IMG/VR virus record: IMGVR_UViG_3300022752_003061 | Location: 1-23,346 of that record | Length of the DNA stretch: 23,346 bases | Reading direction: 5' to 3' (one strand) | Source of the DNA: a virus | Part shown: in pieces, positions 2,897-13,664 of the stretch | Layout of the letters: each line of letters opens with the position of its first letter | Position numbering within the stretch: the stretch's first letter is position 1 | Translations under genes and position numbers: made by a program | Notes under the pieces: model-generated | Databases searched by the model: none | Seen by the model: the letters and a program-made list of their open reading frames with translations, nothing else | Told to the model about the DNA's origin: nothing

Positions 2897-3607
2897 ATGA
2901 TGAAATATATAACAAAAAAATCATTAAGGGAAGCAACCGGTTCAGGGAGTTCCGGAACTTTTAAGAATCCAATAAGCTTCGCACCTCTTGATTGGGGTAA
3001 AGAACCTTTGGAACCATTTAATATTAGAGTCTCCGACTATTTAAATCCAACTTTAGCATATGATAGTTATGACGGTTCTTTAGATATTTCAAAAGAGAAG
3101 GTGGATAAAATAGAAAGATTAACAAAAAAACTTTCAAGAAAAGCCTCGGAAACATTCGGACAAAATGATGATGACGGAAATCCGTTAAATGGTTTTATTC
3201 CTATGGGAGATACCACACCAGGAACGCCCGGACATAAATCTGATTTAGTTAAGGAAGATTTGGGTGTTTGGTTTGGAACAAAAAAGAAACCAAAAGGTAG
3301 TAGTCAACCAAAAGGTCCTTGGGTTAATATATGTCGCAAAAAAGAGGGTGGAGGTCATCCCCCGTGTGGTAGACCGGATGCCTCAGATAAAGGATACCCT
3401 AAATGTAGGGCTGCCGGTGTTGCGTCAAAAATGACAGATTCACAAAAAAGAAGTGCGTGTCAACAAAAAAGAACTGCAGAAAAGACACATAATAAGTCAG
3501 GTACGGGGAACAAACCAAAAATGACCTCATATAAACCGAAATCCAAGAAAAATGAATCTATTAGAGATATAGTTATAAAGGTATTAAACGAACAATTCAA
3601 GAAGTAA
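2897..3607 (+). CDS. Candidate capsid-targeted basic protein with DUF5872-like domain
   Basis: This protein has 235-236 residues (ATG at 2897 or 2900) and no known function. Numbered from 2900, its N terminus is short and ends SLRE followed by Ala (8-12), like the T4 capsid-targeting sequence that ends in IAE|A and is cut by the prohead protease. A Gly/Ser linker and an acidic middle follow. Residues 115-195 form a basic, Cys-containing domain with WFGTKKKPKG, GPWVNIC, PPCGRP and YPKCRAAG motifs, which I recall as DUF5872-like, a domain of unknown function seen in viral proteins. The C terminus (219-235) carries IRDIVIKVLNEQ, almost the same tag found at the N terminus of the gene at 5503-5973. 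The stop overlaps the convergent gene by 11 bases. A virion internal protein is inferred, not shown. Confidence 0.85.
   Translation: MMKYITKKSLREATGSGSSGTFKNPISFAPLDWGKEPLEPFNIRVSDYLNPTLAYDSYDGSLDISKEKVDKIERLTKKLSRKASETFGQNDDDGNPLNGFIPMGDTTPGTPGHKSDLVKEDLGVWFGTKKKPKGSSQPKGPWVNICRKKEGGGHPPCGRPDASDKGYPKCRAAGVASKMTDSQKRSACQQKRTAEKTHNKSGTGNKPKMTSYKPKSKKNESIRDIVIKVLNEQFKK
3581..3595 (+). repeat. 15-nt sequence shared with the tag of a second gene
   Basis: GTATTAAACGAACAA encodes the VLNEQ end of this protein. The identical 15 bases occur in sense orientation on the minus strand at 5908-5922, inside the N-terminal tag of another gene. Identity at DNA level suggests recent copying of the tag, not only protein-level convergence. 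Confidence 0.7.
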
Positions 3608-4013
3608 CTTTTGTTAAGATATTTTTTAAAGAGTGTTTAATATTATTTTTTATTTCATTCTCCAAATCTTGTCGTTTTTCTTCCACCACTTTATCAAAAC
3701 CATTGACAATTTTATTGTATAATGAATCGCTTTCAATAAAAACGTTATAACTATATACGTGATTTATTATGCTGATTTGTCTATTGTGTATTACGATAAA
3801 CATATCTTTTTCATCATTTTTTATAAATCTTTTATTGGATATTGGGGCTATCGTTAATTTTGAATTTGTATTTTCTATCAGTTTTTCACAAATTTCAACA
3901 CAAAATATTTCTTCTTCCTTTGGTGGAGGGTTTGGGTCAAATTTTTCTTTTAGGTTTAAATAAACCCTAAATAATAATTTTGGTATGTATCCAACAACTT
4001 TATTTTCTTTCAT
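3597..4013 (-). CDS. Hypothetical protein (138 aa)
   Basis: The family is not recognised. The start chosen is the ATG at 4013, which gives a soluble 138-residue protein. Longer frames begin with GTG and add a hydrophobic stretch translated from the AT-rich divergent intergenic region, so I discard them. The middle (about 35-95) looks like an alpha/beta domain with Cys at FCVEIC and a TIAPISNKRF segment. The last 40 residues are a charged helix, probably coiled coil. The gene is convergent with 2897-3607 (11-base overlap at the stops) and divergent from the prolyl isomerase gene. On the minus strand TATATTTG occurs about 60 bases upstream and matches the Bacteroidota -7 consensus TAnnTTTG. Confidence 0.75.
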   Translation of the reverse strand: MKENKVVGYIPKLLFRVYLNLKEKFDPNPPPKEEEIFCVEICEKLIENTNSKLTIAPISNKRFIKNDEKDMFIVIHNRQISIINHVYSYNVFIESDSLYNKIVNGFDKVVEEKRQDLENEIKNNIKHSLKNILTKVTS

Positions 4014-4083
4014 AACACAAATGTAAGGTTTTTTATTGATTAAAAAAATAATTTCAACTACCTTTATAACAAATATATAAAAA

Positions 4084-4518
4084 ATGAGTAAAATTAAAAA
4101 TGGTGACACCGTAACCGTAAATTATGTCGGTAAATTAGATGACGGAACAATTTTCGATTCATCTTTAAATGAGGGTAGAGAACCCCTTGTATGTAGTTTA
4201 GGACAGAAACAACTAATTCCTGGTTTTGAAAATGGTTTAATTGATATGTCAGTTGGCGATAAAAAAACTGTTGAGATTGTTCCGGAAGATGGATATGGTC
4301 CATATAGAGAAGAAATGATTTTCGACATTCCAAAAGAGCAATTTCCTGAGGGTGTTAAAGCTGGCGATGTTTTAAACGCTCAAAGTGCAATGGGTCCGGT
4401 TAATGTTACCGTTGTTGATGTTGCGGAAGAAACAATTAAAATTGATGCAAATCATCCTTTGGCCGGTAAAAAATTAATTTTTGAACTAGAGGTTTTGGAT
4501 ATTATGGAAGCAGAGTAA
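4084..4518 (+). CDS. FKBP-type peptidyl-prolyl isomerase, SlyD-like
   Basis: This 144-residue protein should speed cis-trans isomerisation of Xaa-Pro bonds (EC 5.2.1.8) and may act as a folding chaperone. The split FKBP fold is clear: residues 1-71 include VNYVGKLDDGTIFDSS and LIPGFENGL followed by MSVGDKKTV, residues 72-125 form the SlyD-type insert-in-flap chaperone domain, and HPLAGKKLIFELEVLDI (124-140) closes the fold. The His/Cys-rich metal-binding tail of E. coli SlyD is absent; the protein ends soon after the last strand. It has no signal peptide, so it acts in the cytoplasm. It is a single-gene unit: an AT-rich divergent region lies upstream and a strong terminator directly downstream. 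Its place near the capsid gene suggests help in folding a virion protein, but this is inference. Confidence 0.93.
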   Translation: MSKIKNGDTVTVNYVGKLDDGTIFDSSLNEGREPLVCSLGQKQLIPGFENGLIDMSVGDKKTVEIVPEDGYGPYREEMIFDIPKEQFPEGVKAGDVLNAQSAMGPVNVTVVDVAEETIKIDANHPLAGKKLIFELEVLDIMEAE

Positions 4519-4524
4519 AAAAAC

Positions 4525-4550
4525 AAACCCCTCTTTTGGAGGGGTTTTTT
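4525..4550. terminator. Bidirectional rho-independent terminator
   Basis: AAACCCCTC pairs with GAGGGGTTT around a TTTTG loop. Runs of T follow on the plus strand, and the A-rich left flank gives T runs on the minus strand. It lies between the convergent prolyl isomerase gene and the minus-strand HNH gene (whose stop overlaps it), so it can end transcripts from both sides. Confidence 0.9.
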
Positions 4551-5457
4551 AATTTAACAATATTAATTGGTATTCGCATTTCCAACCTTTAAAATGTTTT
4601 AACTCTCCTTTTCCAACTCTATGTAATCCACTATCATTTAAATTGTTTTCAAGACAAAAATTTCTCAAAGATGGTAAAATATATTCATTACCATCAGGAG
4701 ATATTACTTTATAAATTCGTTTTTCAAGTTCTTCACCTTTAGTTCTATTTAAAATTATCATTCCTTTTTGTGGGGTTCTTTTTATTTTTTTTCTTGAAGA
4801 TTTTAATGTATTAAAACTTATGTTTTTTTCTCTACAATATTTGTTTAGATTTTTAACAACGGTCTTATTTAAATTTTCATCATATATTACATATTCGTCT
4901 CTATCATCAATATCATCTAATTTTTTTTCTAATACAGAAATTTCTGTATTATTTTTTTCTTCAGTTTTATTTGTTTTATTTATTAAAACGTCAACAAAGT
5001 TTATCCAAGTTTCAACATCTGTTTCATTTCTACCTATGTTAGCAGCATAACAACATAATACTATATTCTCTTTAGTATATCCTTTAAATCTATCAATCCT
5101 ATCTAATGAAGGTTGTTGAGGATGTTTTTTTGTTAGGGATGGAATTAGAGGAACTTTAAACCAATAACATAAACCTTCTTGATTTTTATATATTTCTATA
5201 ATATCATCAACGGTTAATGTATTTTCACAATCTCTTGATTTTGAGTAATTTAATAAAAAGTTAGCCCACAATCTAATTTTTCTTTCTTGGTATTTTAACT
5301 TTTCTTTCTCTTTATTTTTGGGGTCTTGTCTATATTTCTTTTTAGATTCTTTACCAAACAAATTGTGGTGGAATTTACACAATAGTGATTTTTGGGATTT
5401 GTGAAATTCACTAATGGGTTTATAATCACAACATTCTTTACAATATTTTGTTTCCAT
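4549..5457 (-). CDS. HNH homing endonuclease with Zn site and C-terminal repeats
   Basis: This 302-residue protein is a probable homing endonuclease. Residues 6-30 carry CxxC and CxxH, a probable zinc ribbon. The HNH-like core spans about 85-150, with Cys97, PSLDRIDRFKGYT (116-128), a CC pair at 135-136 and Asn140, as in phage HNH enzymes of the SLDRID type. The C-terminal half has two related modules (about 187-235 and 248-296) with the pattern of NUMOD-type DNA-recognition repeats; the second includes a SLRNFCLENNL helix and ends in GWKCEY. The gene follows the minus-strand operon after a 45-base gap with its own TATATTTAT element and ends at the two-way terminator. As a selfish element it could be inserted at the end of the late operon. 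Class assignment is firm, repeat naming less so. Confidence 0.85.
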   Translation of the reverse strand: METKYCKECCDYKPISEFHKSQKSLLCKFHHNLFGKESKKKYRQDPKNKEKEKLKYQERKIRLWANFLLNYSKSRDCENTLTVDDIIEIYKNQEGLCYWFKVPLIPSLTKKHPQQPSLDRIDRFKGYTKENIVLCCYAANIGRNETDVETWINFVDVLINKTNKTEEKNNTEISVLEKKLDDIDDRDEYVIYDENLNKTVVKNLNKYCREKNISFNTLKSSRKKIKRTPQKGMIILNRTKGEELEKRIYKVISPDGNEYILPSLRNFCLENNLNDSGLHRVGKGELKHFKGWKCEYQLILLN

Positions 5458-5470
5458 ATATATAAATATA
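5458..5470 (-). promoter_or_regulatory. TATATTTAT element next to the start codon (site 3)
   Basis: On the minus strand TATATTTATATAT directly precedes the ATG at 5457. It is the third close copy of this start-adjacent element and again heads a homing endonuclease gene. Confidence 0.45.
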
Positions 5471-5502
5471 TGGATTTTGGGTAAAGTGTCTAAATATGTA
5501 AA

Positions 5503-5973
5503 TTATTTTTTCTTCCATTTACCACCTAAACTTTTATAATGTTTTGCGGCGGCACCATTGCAATATGCACTAGGACAAACTTTGTATCTACTTTTAGCCC
5601 AAGATAATGATTTTTTCCACAGTGACGGATTTGTTGGTGTATTCTTTTTTTGTTTTTCAGTTATTTCAATTGATTCTTCCATCATACCCATTTCAATGCC
5701 CTCATTTCCTACTCGACTTTTTTCATTCATAAGGAAATCAAATACTTGGTCCATATTGTTTTTTGCTTCGGATATATGGTCAGCCGCCCAATCATGACCC
5801 CCAGACAGAATCTCGTCAATCATATGGGGTTCAAATTCATTAAGTAGTATATCACATTGCCTTCTCATTTGTTCTAAATTTGAGAAGAACATGTAGTTCT
5901 CGTGCTCTTGTTCGTTTAATACTTTTTTTACAAGAGAACTAATATCTCTTTCAGTTAATCTAATTGTTCTCAT
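5503..5973 (-). CDS. Tagged basic protein with PSAY motif, candidate internal head protein
   Basis: This 156-residue protein has three parts. Residues 1-21 form a tag (RLTERDISSLVKKVLNE then Gln) that is shared with the next gene upstream and ends in L-N-E, a fit to the T4 prohead-protease rule. Residues 25-110 are acidic and helical. Residues 115-156 are strongly basic and carry NPSLWKKSLSWAKSRYKVC, then PSAY (134-137 region), HYKSLGGKW and a poly-Lys end. The PSAY...YK..GG.W pattern is one I recall from many phage and large-virus proteins of unknown function. A basic C terminus with a cleavable N-terminal tag fits a DNA-bound protein packed in the head. The ATG is one base after the stop of the upstream gene, so the two are co-translated. 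Confidence 0.85.
   Translation of the reverse strand: MRTIRLTERDISSLVKKVLNEQEHENYMFFSNLEQMRRQCDILLNEFEPHMIDEILSGGHDWAADHISEAKNNMDQVFDFLMNEKSRVGNEGIEMGMMEESIEITEKQKKNTPTNPSLWKKSLSWAKSRYKVCPSAYCNGAAAKHYKSLGGKWKKK
5904..5973 (-). repeat. Tag-coding direct repeat, copy 1
   Basis: The first about 70 bases of this gene resemble, at DNA level, the first about 68 bases of the adjacent gene (6294-6361). The shared parts encode RLTE-D--LVKKV--EQ. The bodies of the two genes are not similar, so only the tag is duplicated. Confidence 0.7.
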
Positions 5974-5974
5974 A

Positions 5975-6361
5975 TTAATTTATTTTTTTTGAAATTGCAG
6001 ATTCAATAACATCAATGGCTTGTGAGTATTTGTTAAAATGTGTTTCAGCCATATCTATCGCCCTTATTATTCTTTGTTTTTTTGCACTATCCATCTTTGA
6101 TGACGTTATCTTATTTTTAAGGTCAGGAAATTTTGCAATAATATTATGATTTGGTTTATCCAATCTTTTTAATTCTTTCATATATCCCGATAAAGAACTT
6201 AAATATTTAAAATAGTCGTAACCATCCCCTCTCCAAACACCTTTTAATCCGGCGTATGCGTCTTTAATTGGGTCAAAAATACCTTCACTTTGTTCTTGTT
6301 CCCTAATAACTTTTTTTACAAGACGATTTATGTCTGTTTCTGTTAATCTAGTAGTTTTCAT
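5975..6361 (-). CDS. Tagged helical protein, candidate internal head protein
   Basis: This 128-residue protein begins with the same 21-residue tag as its neighbour (RLTETDINRLVKKVIRE then Gln), ending in I-R-E, which also fits the prohead-protease rule. The remainder is a charged, mostly helical domain rich in Lys with no motif I recognise (about residues 30-128, including WRGDGYDYF and an AIDMAETHFNKY helix). It is encoded between a large structural gene (three bases upstream) and the PSAY-motif protein (one base downstream), so it belongs to the late operon. The role as a packaged protein is inferred from tag and position only. Confidence 0.83.
   Translation of the reverse strand: MKTTRLTETDINRLVKKVIREQEQSEGIFDPIKDAYAGLKGVWRGDGYDYFKYLSSLSGYMKELKRLDKPNHNIIAKFPDLKNKITSSKMDSAKKQRIIRAIDMAETHFNKYSQAIDVIESAISKKIN
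6294..6361 (-). repeat. Tag-coding direct repeat, copy 2
   Basis: This is the second copy of the tag-coding DNA, at the 5' end of the upstream gene. See copy 1 for the comparison. Confidence 0.7.
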
Positions 6362-12120: not shown

Positions 12121-12867
12121 TTAATTTTTCAATTTTGATTGTGTGAATAAATATAACTTTTTGAATTTTTTTATAGATGTTCTAATTTCTTTTGTATTCA
12201 TATTTGTCATCTCCCTAAGAGATAAAAGAATTATATTTTTGTTGAACTTATTATTATCCGAACCAAAAAAGATTTCATCATAATTCTCAAATAAATCAAC
12301 CAAAGCAATACCTAATTTCTTTTCATTATCCGTTAGTTCTTCATCTTCAAGAAATTCTCGTAATTCGTTTACATAATTATTTATTACAAACTCCATTTCA
12401 ACAACCTCATCATCAATTCTGTATGACATATCCGGTCTTTGTTCTATTGAACTTGAAATATCCTCATATGAAACTTTTCTATTTGTTTCTTTTTGGTCTT
12501 TAATAATTTGACCCATTAGATAATTTTTACATATGGTTCCAAAATAAGAATAGGCCTTCTTCTCTTTAGAAGGCTTAAATTTATCTACTTTCGTCATAAG
12601 AAAAGAATGAGTATCCGTATGGATTTCTTCAAAATTCATATCTTTTCTATATAATTTGTATCTTCTAATTATAGAAGAAATCATCTTATCTAACGGAGAC
12701 CTTAAAAAATTATTATATATTTTATTTTTCTCTTCCGATGAGTCACACAAAAGATATTCTCTTACCGCATTCTCTTCTCTAATATCAAAATAATTTTCTT
12801 TTTTCGTTTTTCGACCTCTTTTTTTTGATAAGACTTCCTCAGTATCTCCTGAAAAAGTTATTTCCAT
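12121..12867 (-). CDS. 55: Late-transcription sigma factor, gp55-like
   Basis: This 248-residue protein should direct host RNA polymerase to phage late promoters. After a basic N terminus (KKRGRKTKKENYF, 15-27) the sigma region 2 core spans about 45-135: NFLRSPLDKMISSIIRRYK, FEEIHTDTHSFLMTKVDKF, then AYSYFGTICKNYLMGQIIKD, which lines up with the core-binding and -10-recognition helices of T4 gp55 (for example [20 protein letters not shown]). An acidic linker (150-205) leads to a C-terminal helix-turn-helix-like segment (about 210-242, NIILLSLREMTNMNTKEI), resembling a reduced region 4 that T4 gp55 lacks. The short clamp-binding tail of T4 gp55 is not evident. Its start overlaps the stop of the glycosyltransferase gene (TAATG). 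It stands directly before the baseplate genes. Confidence 0.85.
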   Translation of the reverse strand: MEITFSGDTEEVLSKKRGRKTKKENYFDIREENAVREYLLCDSSEEKNKIYNNFLRSPLDKMISSIIRRYKLYRKDMNFEEIHTDTHSFLMTKVDKFKPSKEKKAYSYFGTICKNYLMGQIIKDQKETNRKVSYEDISSSIEQRPDMSYRIDDEVVEMEFVINNYVNELREFLEDEELTDNEKKLGIALVDLFENYDEIFFGSDNNKFNKNIILLSLREMTNMNTKEIRTSIKKFKKLYLFTQSKLKN

Positions 12868-13664
12868 TATGCGGATTGGGGTGTATATTTTATGGCTCTA
12901 TCATCAACAAAAAAATATTCTTTCTTTGCGGTTTCTAACCAAAATTTGACTTCATCGTCAGCGATTTTATTTTCTCCGAATTTATAGTTCCAAAAAATAG
13001 AACCTTCTCTCATGTTAGTATGTTTATAACCAATTTTAGGAATTGTCATAATTGATACTGAATTATAAGTCAATCTTAATAAGAACTCATAAATAAATGT
13101 TAATTTAATTGTTGGTTTAAATCCCCCGAAATCATTAATAACTTCTTTCTTCCATACCGCACCTGCAGTTTGGAAATTTTGATAATTATGTAATGTTTCA
13201 TTGGTTAAATAACCCATTTCCATGGTAAAGTTTGCTGCGAATGTTGCTTCGTTGGTAAACCCAGCAAAAGCATTTTTATCGTCAACATCAACAACAACCG
13301 GTAAGAACGCCTGAACCTCAGGATAAAATTCCATATATTTTTTTGCGTTTTTAAACCATATTGCGGAATATTCATCATCAAATTCAAAAATAGAGAACCA
13401 TGTACTTTTAGATTTTTCAATTCCAAAGTTTACTTGTTCCGCATAATTAGTTTCTTTAGTCCATGAGTATTTAGAAACAACTAAATCACCAAAATCGTAT
13501 TCATTTAAGAATTTCACTAATTGTTCTTCCGTTGAATGAACGATAACTAATTCGTCAGGTTTAACTAATTGATTTTGTATTGATTTTATTGCCTTATCAA
13601 AGAATTCTGCGAAATCTCTAGATAATGACGATTTAATAGGTAAAATTACAGATATTGTATTCAT
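12867..13664 (-). CDS. GT2-like (GT-A fold) glycosyltransferase
   Basis: This 265-residue protein looks like a family 2 glycosyltransferase. The N terminus ISVILPIKSSLSRDF (4-18) is the first Rossmann strand, PDELVIVHS (36-44) is the second, and FEFDDEY (93-99) is the DxD-type nucleotide-sugar and metal site. A QTAGAVWKKEVINDFGGF segment (about 165-185) fits the acceptor-side region of GT2 enzymes. The fold continues to YKHTNMREGS near 218. It probably transfers a sugar to a protein or polysaccharide acceptor in the cytoplasm; donor and acceptor cannot be deduced. It is paired with the GT4-like gene four bases upstream and abuts the sigma gene, so these enzymes appear to be part of the phage core region rather than the recently added sugar block. 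Confidence 0.82.
   Translation of the reverse strand: MNTISVILPIKSSLSRDFAEFFDKAIKSIQNQLVKPDELVIVHSTEEQLVKFLNEYDFGDLVVSKYSWTKETNYAEQVNFGIEKSKSTWFSIFEFDDEYSAIWFKNAKKYMEFYPEVQAFLPVVVDVDDKNAFAGFTNEATFAANFTMEMGYLTNETLHNYQNFQTAGAVWKKEVINDFGGFKPTIKLTFIYEFLLRLTYNSVSIMTIPKIGYKHTNMREGSIFWNYKFGENKIADDEVKFWLETAKKEYFFVDDRAIKYTPQSA

Follow-up and report, generated by a model that had tools for sequence, protein, structure and literature searches.

Putative scaffold-mimicking capsid-targeting tags on unrelated proteins of T4-like phages

Introduction

To our knowledge, proteins that are delivered together with the DNA are known in very few phages. In phage T4, a 10-residue N-terminal sequence carries the internal proteins into the core, these proteins co-purify with the scaffold gp22, and the protease gp21 cuts them after the motif L/I-X-E (PMC9026906). 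In T4, exchanging the Glu for Asp stops the processing and leaves targeting intact (PMC9026906). The T4 protein Alt, a packaged ADP-ribosyltransferase, is processed at both ends (PMC9026906). Here we analyze a 23,346-base fragment of the virus record IMGVR_UViG_3300022752_003061 (IMG/VR, positions 1 to 23,346; hereafter the window), which opens at its left end with a gp23-type capsid gene and encodes three small proteins, P1, P2 and P3, whose short terminal segments (tags) end in a similar motif. Our comparisons suggest that these tags are probably scaffold-mimicking capsid-targeting propeptides of T4-like phages that are removed by the prohead protease. We found no prior account of these tags in a literature search that left out most subscription journals.

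The closest described counterpart is the capsid-targeting sequence (CTS) of the T4 proteins IPI, IPII and IPIII, which like the tags is short, N-terminal, attached to otherwise unrelated proteins and terminated by L/I-x-E. The CTS also resembles the scaffold, in T4 at its start: IPII and IPIII begin MKTYQEFIAE↓A and gp22 begins MLKEQLIAE↓A (arrows mark the cut, a predicted one in the window and its relatives). Unlike the CTS, the tags described here are usually 21 residues long with a helical core, fall into several classes per phage, occur on tens of proteins, also as C-terminal and internal copies, and are mostly followed by Gln at cleavage position P1'.

The propeptides of the giant phages SPN3US and phiKZ are similar in that a head protease recognizes a short motif and cleaves behind its Glu (A-x-E in SPN3US, with S-x-E among the motifs cut in phiKZ), and in that they are carried by inner head and ejection proteins, including the diverged paralogs gp53 and gp54 with identical N termini; they differ in being mostly longer than 100 residues and in having no confirmed scaffold counterpart (PMC5694885). 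Polyvalent proteins (PMC5512222) share with the tagged proteins a multi-domain effector architecture, ADP-ribosyltransferase (ART) domains and a predicted packaging and injection. A shared targeting tag was not found described for them, whereas here tag sequences join modules.

A shared tag on unrelated phage proteins

A preliminary description of the window had proposed packaged proteins from three protease-like sites, and the translations bear these out: SLRE↓A (Glu11) in P1 (2897-3607, + strand), VLNE↓Q (Glu21) in P2 (5503-5973, − strand) and VIRE↓Q (Glu21) in P3 (5975-6361, − strand). P1 is a basic protein of 236 amino acids (net charge +19) with a short N-terminal tag, MKYITKKSLRE↓A (2897-2929, +), delimited by homolog comparison. 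The second tag copy that had been noticed at its C terminus is also real (IVIKVLNE↓QFKK, Glu232); we place this tag, IRDIVIKVLNE↓QFKK, at 3560-3592 (+) from the tag-like C termini of its homologs. We take 2897 as the start of P1 rather than the in-frame upstream ATG at 2789 because its relatives begin at the equivalent point. P2 (156 amino acids) consists of an N-terminal tag, MRTIRLTERDISSLVKKVLNE↓Q (5911-5973, −), a helical YMFFSNL domain and a small C-terminal domain, as judged from a 45-member alignment and an AlphaFold model. P3 (128 amino acids) joins the tag MKTTRLTETDINRLVKKVIRE↓Q (6299-6361, −), which scores 48 bits with the tag profile described below, to an EGIFDPIKDAY domain. Pfam and PHROGs assigned no function to P1, P2 or P3, and a Foldseek comparison of the modelled P2 structure with the PDB was likewise without a match.

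The motif itself is a poor guide. Among 838 proteins of six related contigs, 41.5% have [LI]xE within residues 7-30 and 7.6% have [LI]xE[AQ] in the same zone. Because the motif is so common near N termini, the protease rule alone proves little, and the preliminary argument from L/I-x-E holds for the existence of the sites but is too weak by itself to settle their meaning. A profile of the whole tag, built from 25 tags with a length of 26 residues and a threshold of 10 bits, was far more selective: 34 of the 838 proteins scored at least 10 bits, 31 of these tags starting at residues 1-6, whereas the 4,190 reversed or shuffled controls all stayed at or below 8 bits. Contigs G002 (133 kb), G006 and G005 hold 12, 10 and 9 matches, respectively. 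The expectation that the tag would find more such proteins was borne out many times over. Further, in the loci compared at this stage the tagged proteins form 42 groups, with no BLAST similarity between the bodies of different groups; a short N-terminal segment is thus common to proteins with unrelated bodies.

Shared N termini could also arise at the level of DNA or RNA, as a translation start signal or as recent gene-conversion tracts, and not be a protein signal at all. The tags do lie at start codons, and synonymous codons inside the tags of G002 are somewhat more alike than expected (0.72 vs 0.52), with those of G006 also partly alike. Synonymous codon identity inside the tags of G005, on the other hand, equals expectation (0.52 observed, 0.52 expected), and tags also occur at C termini and in mid-protein. 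Since synonymous codons differ as codon usage predicts in G005 and are no more than partly alike in G002 and G006, the constraint acts on the protein, and the nucleic acid explanation is already disfavoured and seems to us most improbable.

The tags end at a predicted protease site

The consensus of 103 distinct tags of this first type (class 1, RLTESDLxRLVKKVLxE type) is [KR]-L-T-E-S-D-[LI]-x-[RKN]-[LI]-[VI]-[KR]-[KR]-[VI]-[LI]-x-E-[Q/D/E/S]. The tag forms a basic helix and ends in L/I-x-E: cleavage position P3, two residues before Glu, is L or I in 98 of the 103 tags and V or M in the remainder, position P2 directly before Glu is variable and among the least conserved, and the Glu at position P1 terminates 92 of 95 N-terminal tags. 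Among 45 P2 relatives, Glu21 is the sole tag residue invariant in all, insertions start directly after it, and two relatives without the LTESDL half still keep IKKxxKE. In the AlphaFold model of P2, the tag is a lone helix (residues 8-21) that is followed by a break and by a folded domain from residue 27.

At the short N-terminal tag of P1, 53/53 homologs whose start has the form x-A-[TS]-[GS] conserve [IL]-x-E-A while the preceding residues vary, and homologs with related starts keep [IL]-x-E followed by Thr or Ser. The INE↓A site at Glu60 that had been pointed out earlier is likewise present in the major capsid protein, which is gp23-like (50-1828, +; Pfam match to Gp23 with E = 1.3e-71), and we predict from the conservation of the site a propeptide of residues 1-60 ending in FLINE↓A (50-229, +). 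This site is kept in 99/99 capsid proteins, a sample of close relatives partly chosen with a search pattern in which x-E-A was obligatory at this position.

When N termini were compared de novo, genome by genome, and patterns were counted, further tag classes came to light. These include a shorter class, MNLQESIRRILREE; class 4, of the LNEQISRMQxxMGLNE type (EQxxRMQxLAG..L/I-x-E), which reads LSEQFRRMQKLAGIITES in Flavobacterium phage immuto (vB_FspM_immuto, an isolate with Flavobacterium sp. LMO8 as host) and is unrelated in sequence to class 1; class 5, of the INEDERNRILNLHETATKNQYLTEQ type; and class A of immuto, FDLKKFLVENKLTxNSKLLKE. In 14 of 15 class 4 tags an [LIV]xE motif lies at most 9 residues from the core, against 10% of control windows, and the same phi-x-E ending occurs in 4/4 class 5 and 4/4 class A tags. 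Tags are also exchanged on the same protein, as a P2 homolog in G014 bears the short class, MRNIDNIIRKVIKEQSDRYMFF, and a P1 homolog in L106/G015 begins MLKESIIKKVLKE. One protein may bear a long, short or truncated tag and keep the phi-x-E ending. Class 2 (MKIIITExQ) was excluded from the claim as it is short and its pattern also matches the helix-turn-helix of HNH proteins.

By strict patterns, with class 2 included, G002, G006, G014 and G015 each encode 15-25 tagged proteins and G005 encodes 13; clustering of the tagged genes is significant in G014 and G015 only. Small tagged genes are abundant at ~94000-125000 of G002:C1 and ~168000-192000 of G015:C1, many of them starting MKYIITExQ or MKIIITExQ, and these stretches are possible cargo islands.

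Two tag classes resemble the head scaffold

In the relatives of the window the head genes are ordered portal, protease, scaffold and gp23, as in T4. The putative scaffold, an assignment made by position and by its relatives, is the acidic, helical product of the gene between the S77 protease and gp23. By hhalign it is related to immuto gp067 (84%) and to the gene in the same place of phage Mel-JY01 (95%), while homology to T4 gp22 was not found (probability 0.4%). Its structural model, of low overall confidence, has a helix at residues 2-53 and a terminal helix at 499-511.

With the class 1 profile, for which tags alone served as training set, the scaffolds of all six contigs rank 35-37 and 39-41 among the 838 proteins, directly after the 34 tagged proteins; they score 10.6-13.1 bits, whereas shuffled sequences reach 6.3 at most. 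The match covers scaffold residues ~35-49, where the segment KEEIxxLVKESLSEQ (LVKESLSE↓Q) sits within a block that is almost invariant and runs straight into a hypervariable acidic linker. The class 4 profile matches a different part of the same protein, its last 15 residues, scoring 28.3 bits with the immuto scaffold and 18.8 bits with that of Mel-JY01 (shuffle maximum 13.7). In support of this, the class 4 motif has only three matches outside N termini in 1,909 proteins, all of them at scaffold C termini. Column-permuted profiles did equally well in 2/300 cases for class 1 and 1/200 for class 4, so that each control is modest by itself, but the two independent classes agree. An affinity of the tags for the scaffold core may lie behind the sequence resemblance of these two classes.

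A basic helix could instead serve to bind a target outside the head, such as a membrane, the host RNA polymerase or another phage protein, and would then resemble the scaffold by convergence of amphipathic basic helices. The tag is indeed a basic helix, many tagged genes are small and of no known function, and among column-permuted profiles about 1 in 150 places the scaffold equally high. It is however hard to see on this account why two independent classes should point at two different parts of one scaffold protein and why nearly all tags end in the motif of the head protease, and we consider a target outside the head quite improbable.

Among 27 tag-bearing contigs, gp23 is present in 22 and the S77 (gp21-type) prohead protease in 19; both occur in 6/6 large relatives of the window, and immuto and Mel-JY01 also encode an S77 protease. 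Because the tag carriers may all come from a single broad lineage, this is an association and not proof. The DNA pattern of the tag was detected in 40 viral contig stretches; prokaryote genome contigs (257 Gb) contained no copy of it, and tblastn of the tag against isolate phages gave no match.

Tagged proteins and tag-joined polyproteins

Most tagged proteins have no known domain. Exceptions among those with class 1 tags are a PG_binding_1 protein with a Tlde1/YkuD L,D-transpeptidase, a second PG_binding_1 protein and an alpha/beta hydrolase, and other classes are carried by two Peptidase_M23 proteins, a PPK2 and a GNAT acetyltransferase. In contig G006 an ART-PolyVal domain follows the class 4 tag MNLQENINRIKEVMGLNE↓Q (L145:4820-5347, −; E = 3.3e-05, under Pfam's own cut-off), and in G015 an Acb1 anti-CBASS domain that passes the Pfam cut-off follows the class 4 tag MKTLNEQISKIKRIMGLNE↓N (L190:12195-12761, −), making the latter protein a candidate packaged counter-defence protein. 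Acb1 and the cell-wall enzymes would be sensible as injected proteins; PPK2 and the hydrolase are neutral in this respect.

Tags are not restricted to N termini. A tag-like C terminus occurs in 88 of 112 P1 homologs. Loci L069, L102 and L113 encode a P1 homolog that continues into a full tag and then into a new domain; the C-terminal tag of P1 in the window is a short form of this junction. Two further loci (L063 and L120) have the layout tag, domain, tag, YMFFSNL domain, and in L010, L024, G001 and G005 one tag stands between two domains. The two-ended variant proposed for P1 is real, and T4 Alt, which shares the arrangement, is a precedent for it; a tagged ART-PolyVal protein also exists, in G006, but P1 itself is unlike Alt a small basic Cys-containing protein and not an ART.

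A similar assembly was observed in cyanophage S-BM3, whose protein T4-GC_119 (L200:1030-2043) holds P1-type CGR/YPKC-like, P2-type YPSAYANG and CWKGY domains in one chain, with phi-x-E sequences preceding modules. This protein, which is termed hypothetical in the text of PMC3037559, may correspond in cyanophages to the polyprotein cargo. In the window, P2 has a C-terminal domain (5503-5610, −; CPSAYCNGAAAKHYKSLGGKWKKK) that is unlike the VCKGxxxGxDGKKxCSxxYC domain of its relatives and resembles a module of T4-GC_119, which suggests a domain swap.

Predicted loading and release of tagged proteins

Because the tag helix resembles part of the scaffold and ends in the protease motif, the tagged proteins are probably cargo loaded into the head. 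We propose that each tag is a short helix that copies a segment of the internal scaffold, class 1 residues ~35-49 and class 4 the last 15 residues. While the prohead assembles, the tag would attach, like the scaffold itself, to the core or shell under construction and thereby bring the linked protein inside. The gp21-type protease would then cut after L/I-x-E, removing the tag and freeing the cargo, and the same cutting would separate cargo modules joined by internal tags. Cleavage would leave P2 starting QEHENYMFF and P3 starting QEQSEGIFD; in immuto it would follow ITE in gp083 (YP_010114600.1) and gp230 (YP_010114453.1) and LKE or INE in gp077, gp076 and gp003. The cargo would remain with the DNA and would probably be ejected, so that tagged proteins may be injected into the bacterium. 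Such a scheme would explain entry by a scaffold-copy helix, release by L/I-x-E, the free position of the tag and its exchange on the same cargo. The capsid-targeting role given to the sites in the preliminary description is strongly though indirectly supported by the genome-wide module, the scaffold match, the invariant Glu after L/I/V-x and the S77 protease, whereas the L/I-x-E match on which it was founded is weak when taken alone.

Several observations weigh against this proposal. Gln predominates at P1', where T4 gp23, IPII and IPIII have Ala. Since Glu is missing from two C-terminal tags, the tag must serve for more than cutting, and the scaffold of G014 has lost this residue as well (LVKESMKQ). 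The window-group scaffolds form a single homologous family, so that their high ranks count once and not six times. Mel-JY01 has the scaffold motif and no class 1 or class 4 tagged protein in 150 of its 190 kb. We know of no PPK2 or alpha/beta hydrolase among virion proteins, and 15-25 tagged proteins per genome are far above the four of T4; perhaps not all of them are packaged. Finally, a search of T4 with the class 1 profile was negative (highest score 0.9 bits) and homology to the CTS (MKTYQEF) was not found, so class 1 tags have no sequence kinship with the T4 tags. T4 gp68 (DDINTIVENMLDDE) looked similar by eye and was dropped, since it was unranked in the T4 profile search. A CTS-like way of working is nevertheless well supported for the tags, which are unrelated to the CTS in sequence, far more numerous and without a detected sign of descent from it.

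Some of these points would fit a tag that is a targeting or docking helix only, binding the scaffold or shell without being cut, its terminal Glu marking the helix end or a contact. C-terminal copies would stay on the cargo even after cutting, and the two C-terminal tags and the G014 scaffold without Glu are more easily understood in this way. Docking without cleavage would not, however, account for several tag classes of unlike sequence sharing the phi-x-E ending, for Glu21 being the most conserved tag residue with insertions directly after it, or for a gp21-type protease in every large relative, and we regard it as unlikely. We favor scaffold-mimicking propeptides that are cut off.

It is perhaps an even chance that these propeptides amount to a general cargo-loading code: several removable helix families, two or more of which copy different scaffold parts, that stand at either end of proteins or between modules and would bring 15-25 proteins into each virion, including the anti-CBASS protein Acb1, an ADP-ribosyltransferase and cell-wall enzymes, with counter-defence from the start of infection and polyproteins cut inside the head. 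If the tag marks injected proteins, the delivered set could be read from metagenomes, and hypothetical genes for new proteins of counter-defence and host takeover could be singled out by their tags. The tags would also supply packaging signals for non-T4 heads. Copying of the scaffold would be a simple, testable rule for the choice of internal proteins, for which the T4 counterpart is a 10-residue sequence of unclear origin.

Other genes of the window

The window contains three further genes of note. A helix-turn-helix and HNH-like protein (1929-2615, +) with homologs in G002 and G006 lies directly 3' of gp23, and T4 likewise has a homing endonuclease (segD) behind gp23. An HNH endonuclease-like gene (4549-5457, −) sits between P1 and P2 and looks like an inserted mobile gene, since L012 has a similar gene at this position (12808-13293) whereas L022 and L042 have none there. 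The FKBP-type peptidyl-prolyl isomerase gene of the head region (4084-4518, +) carries no tag.

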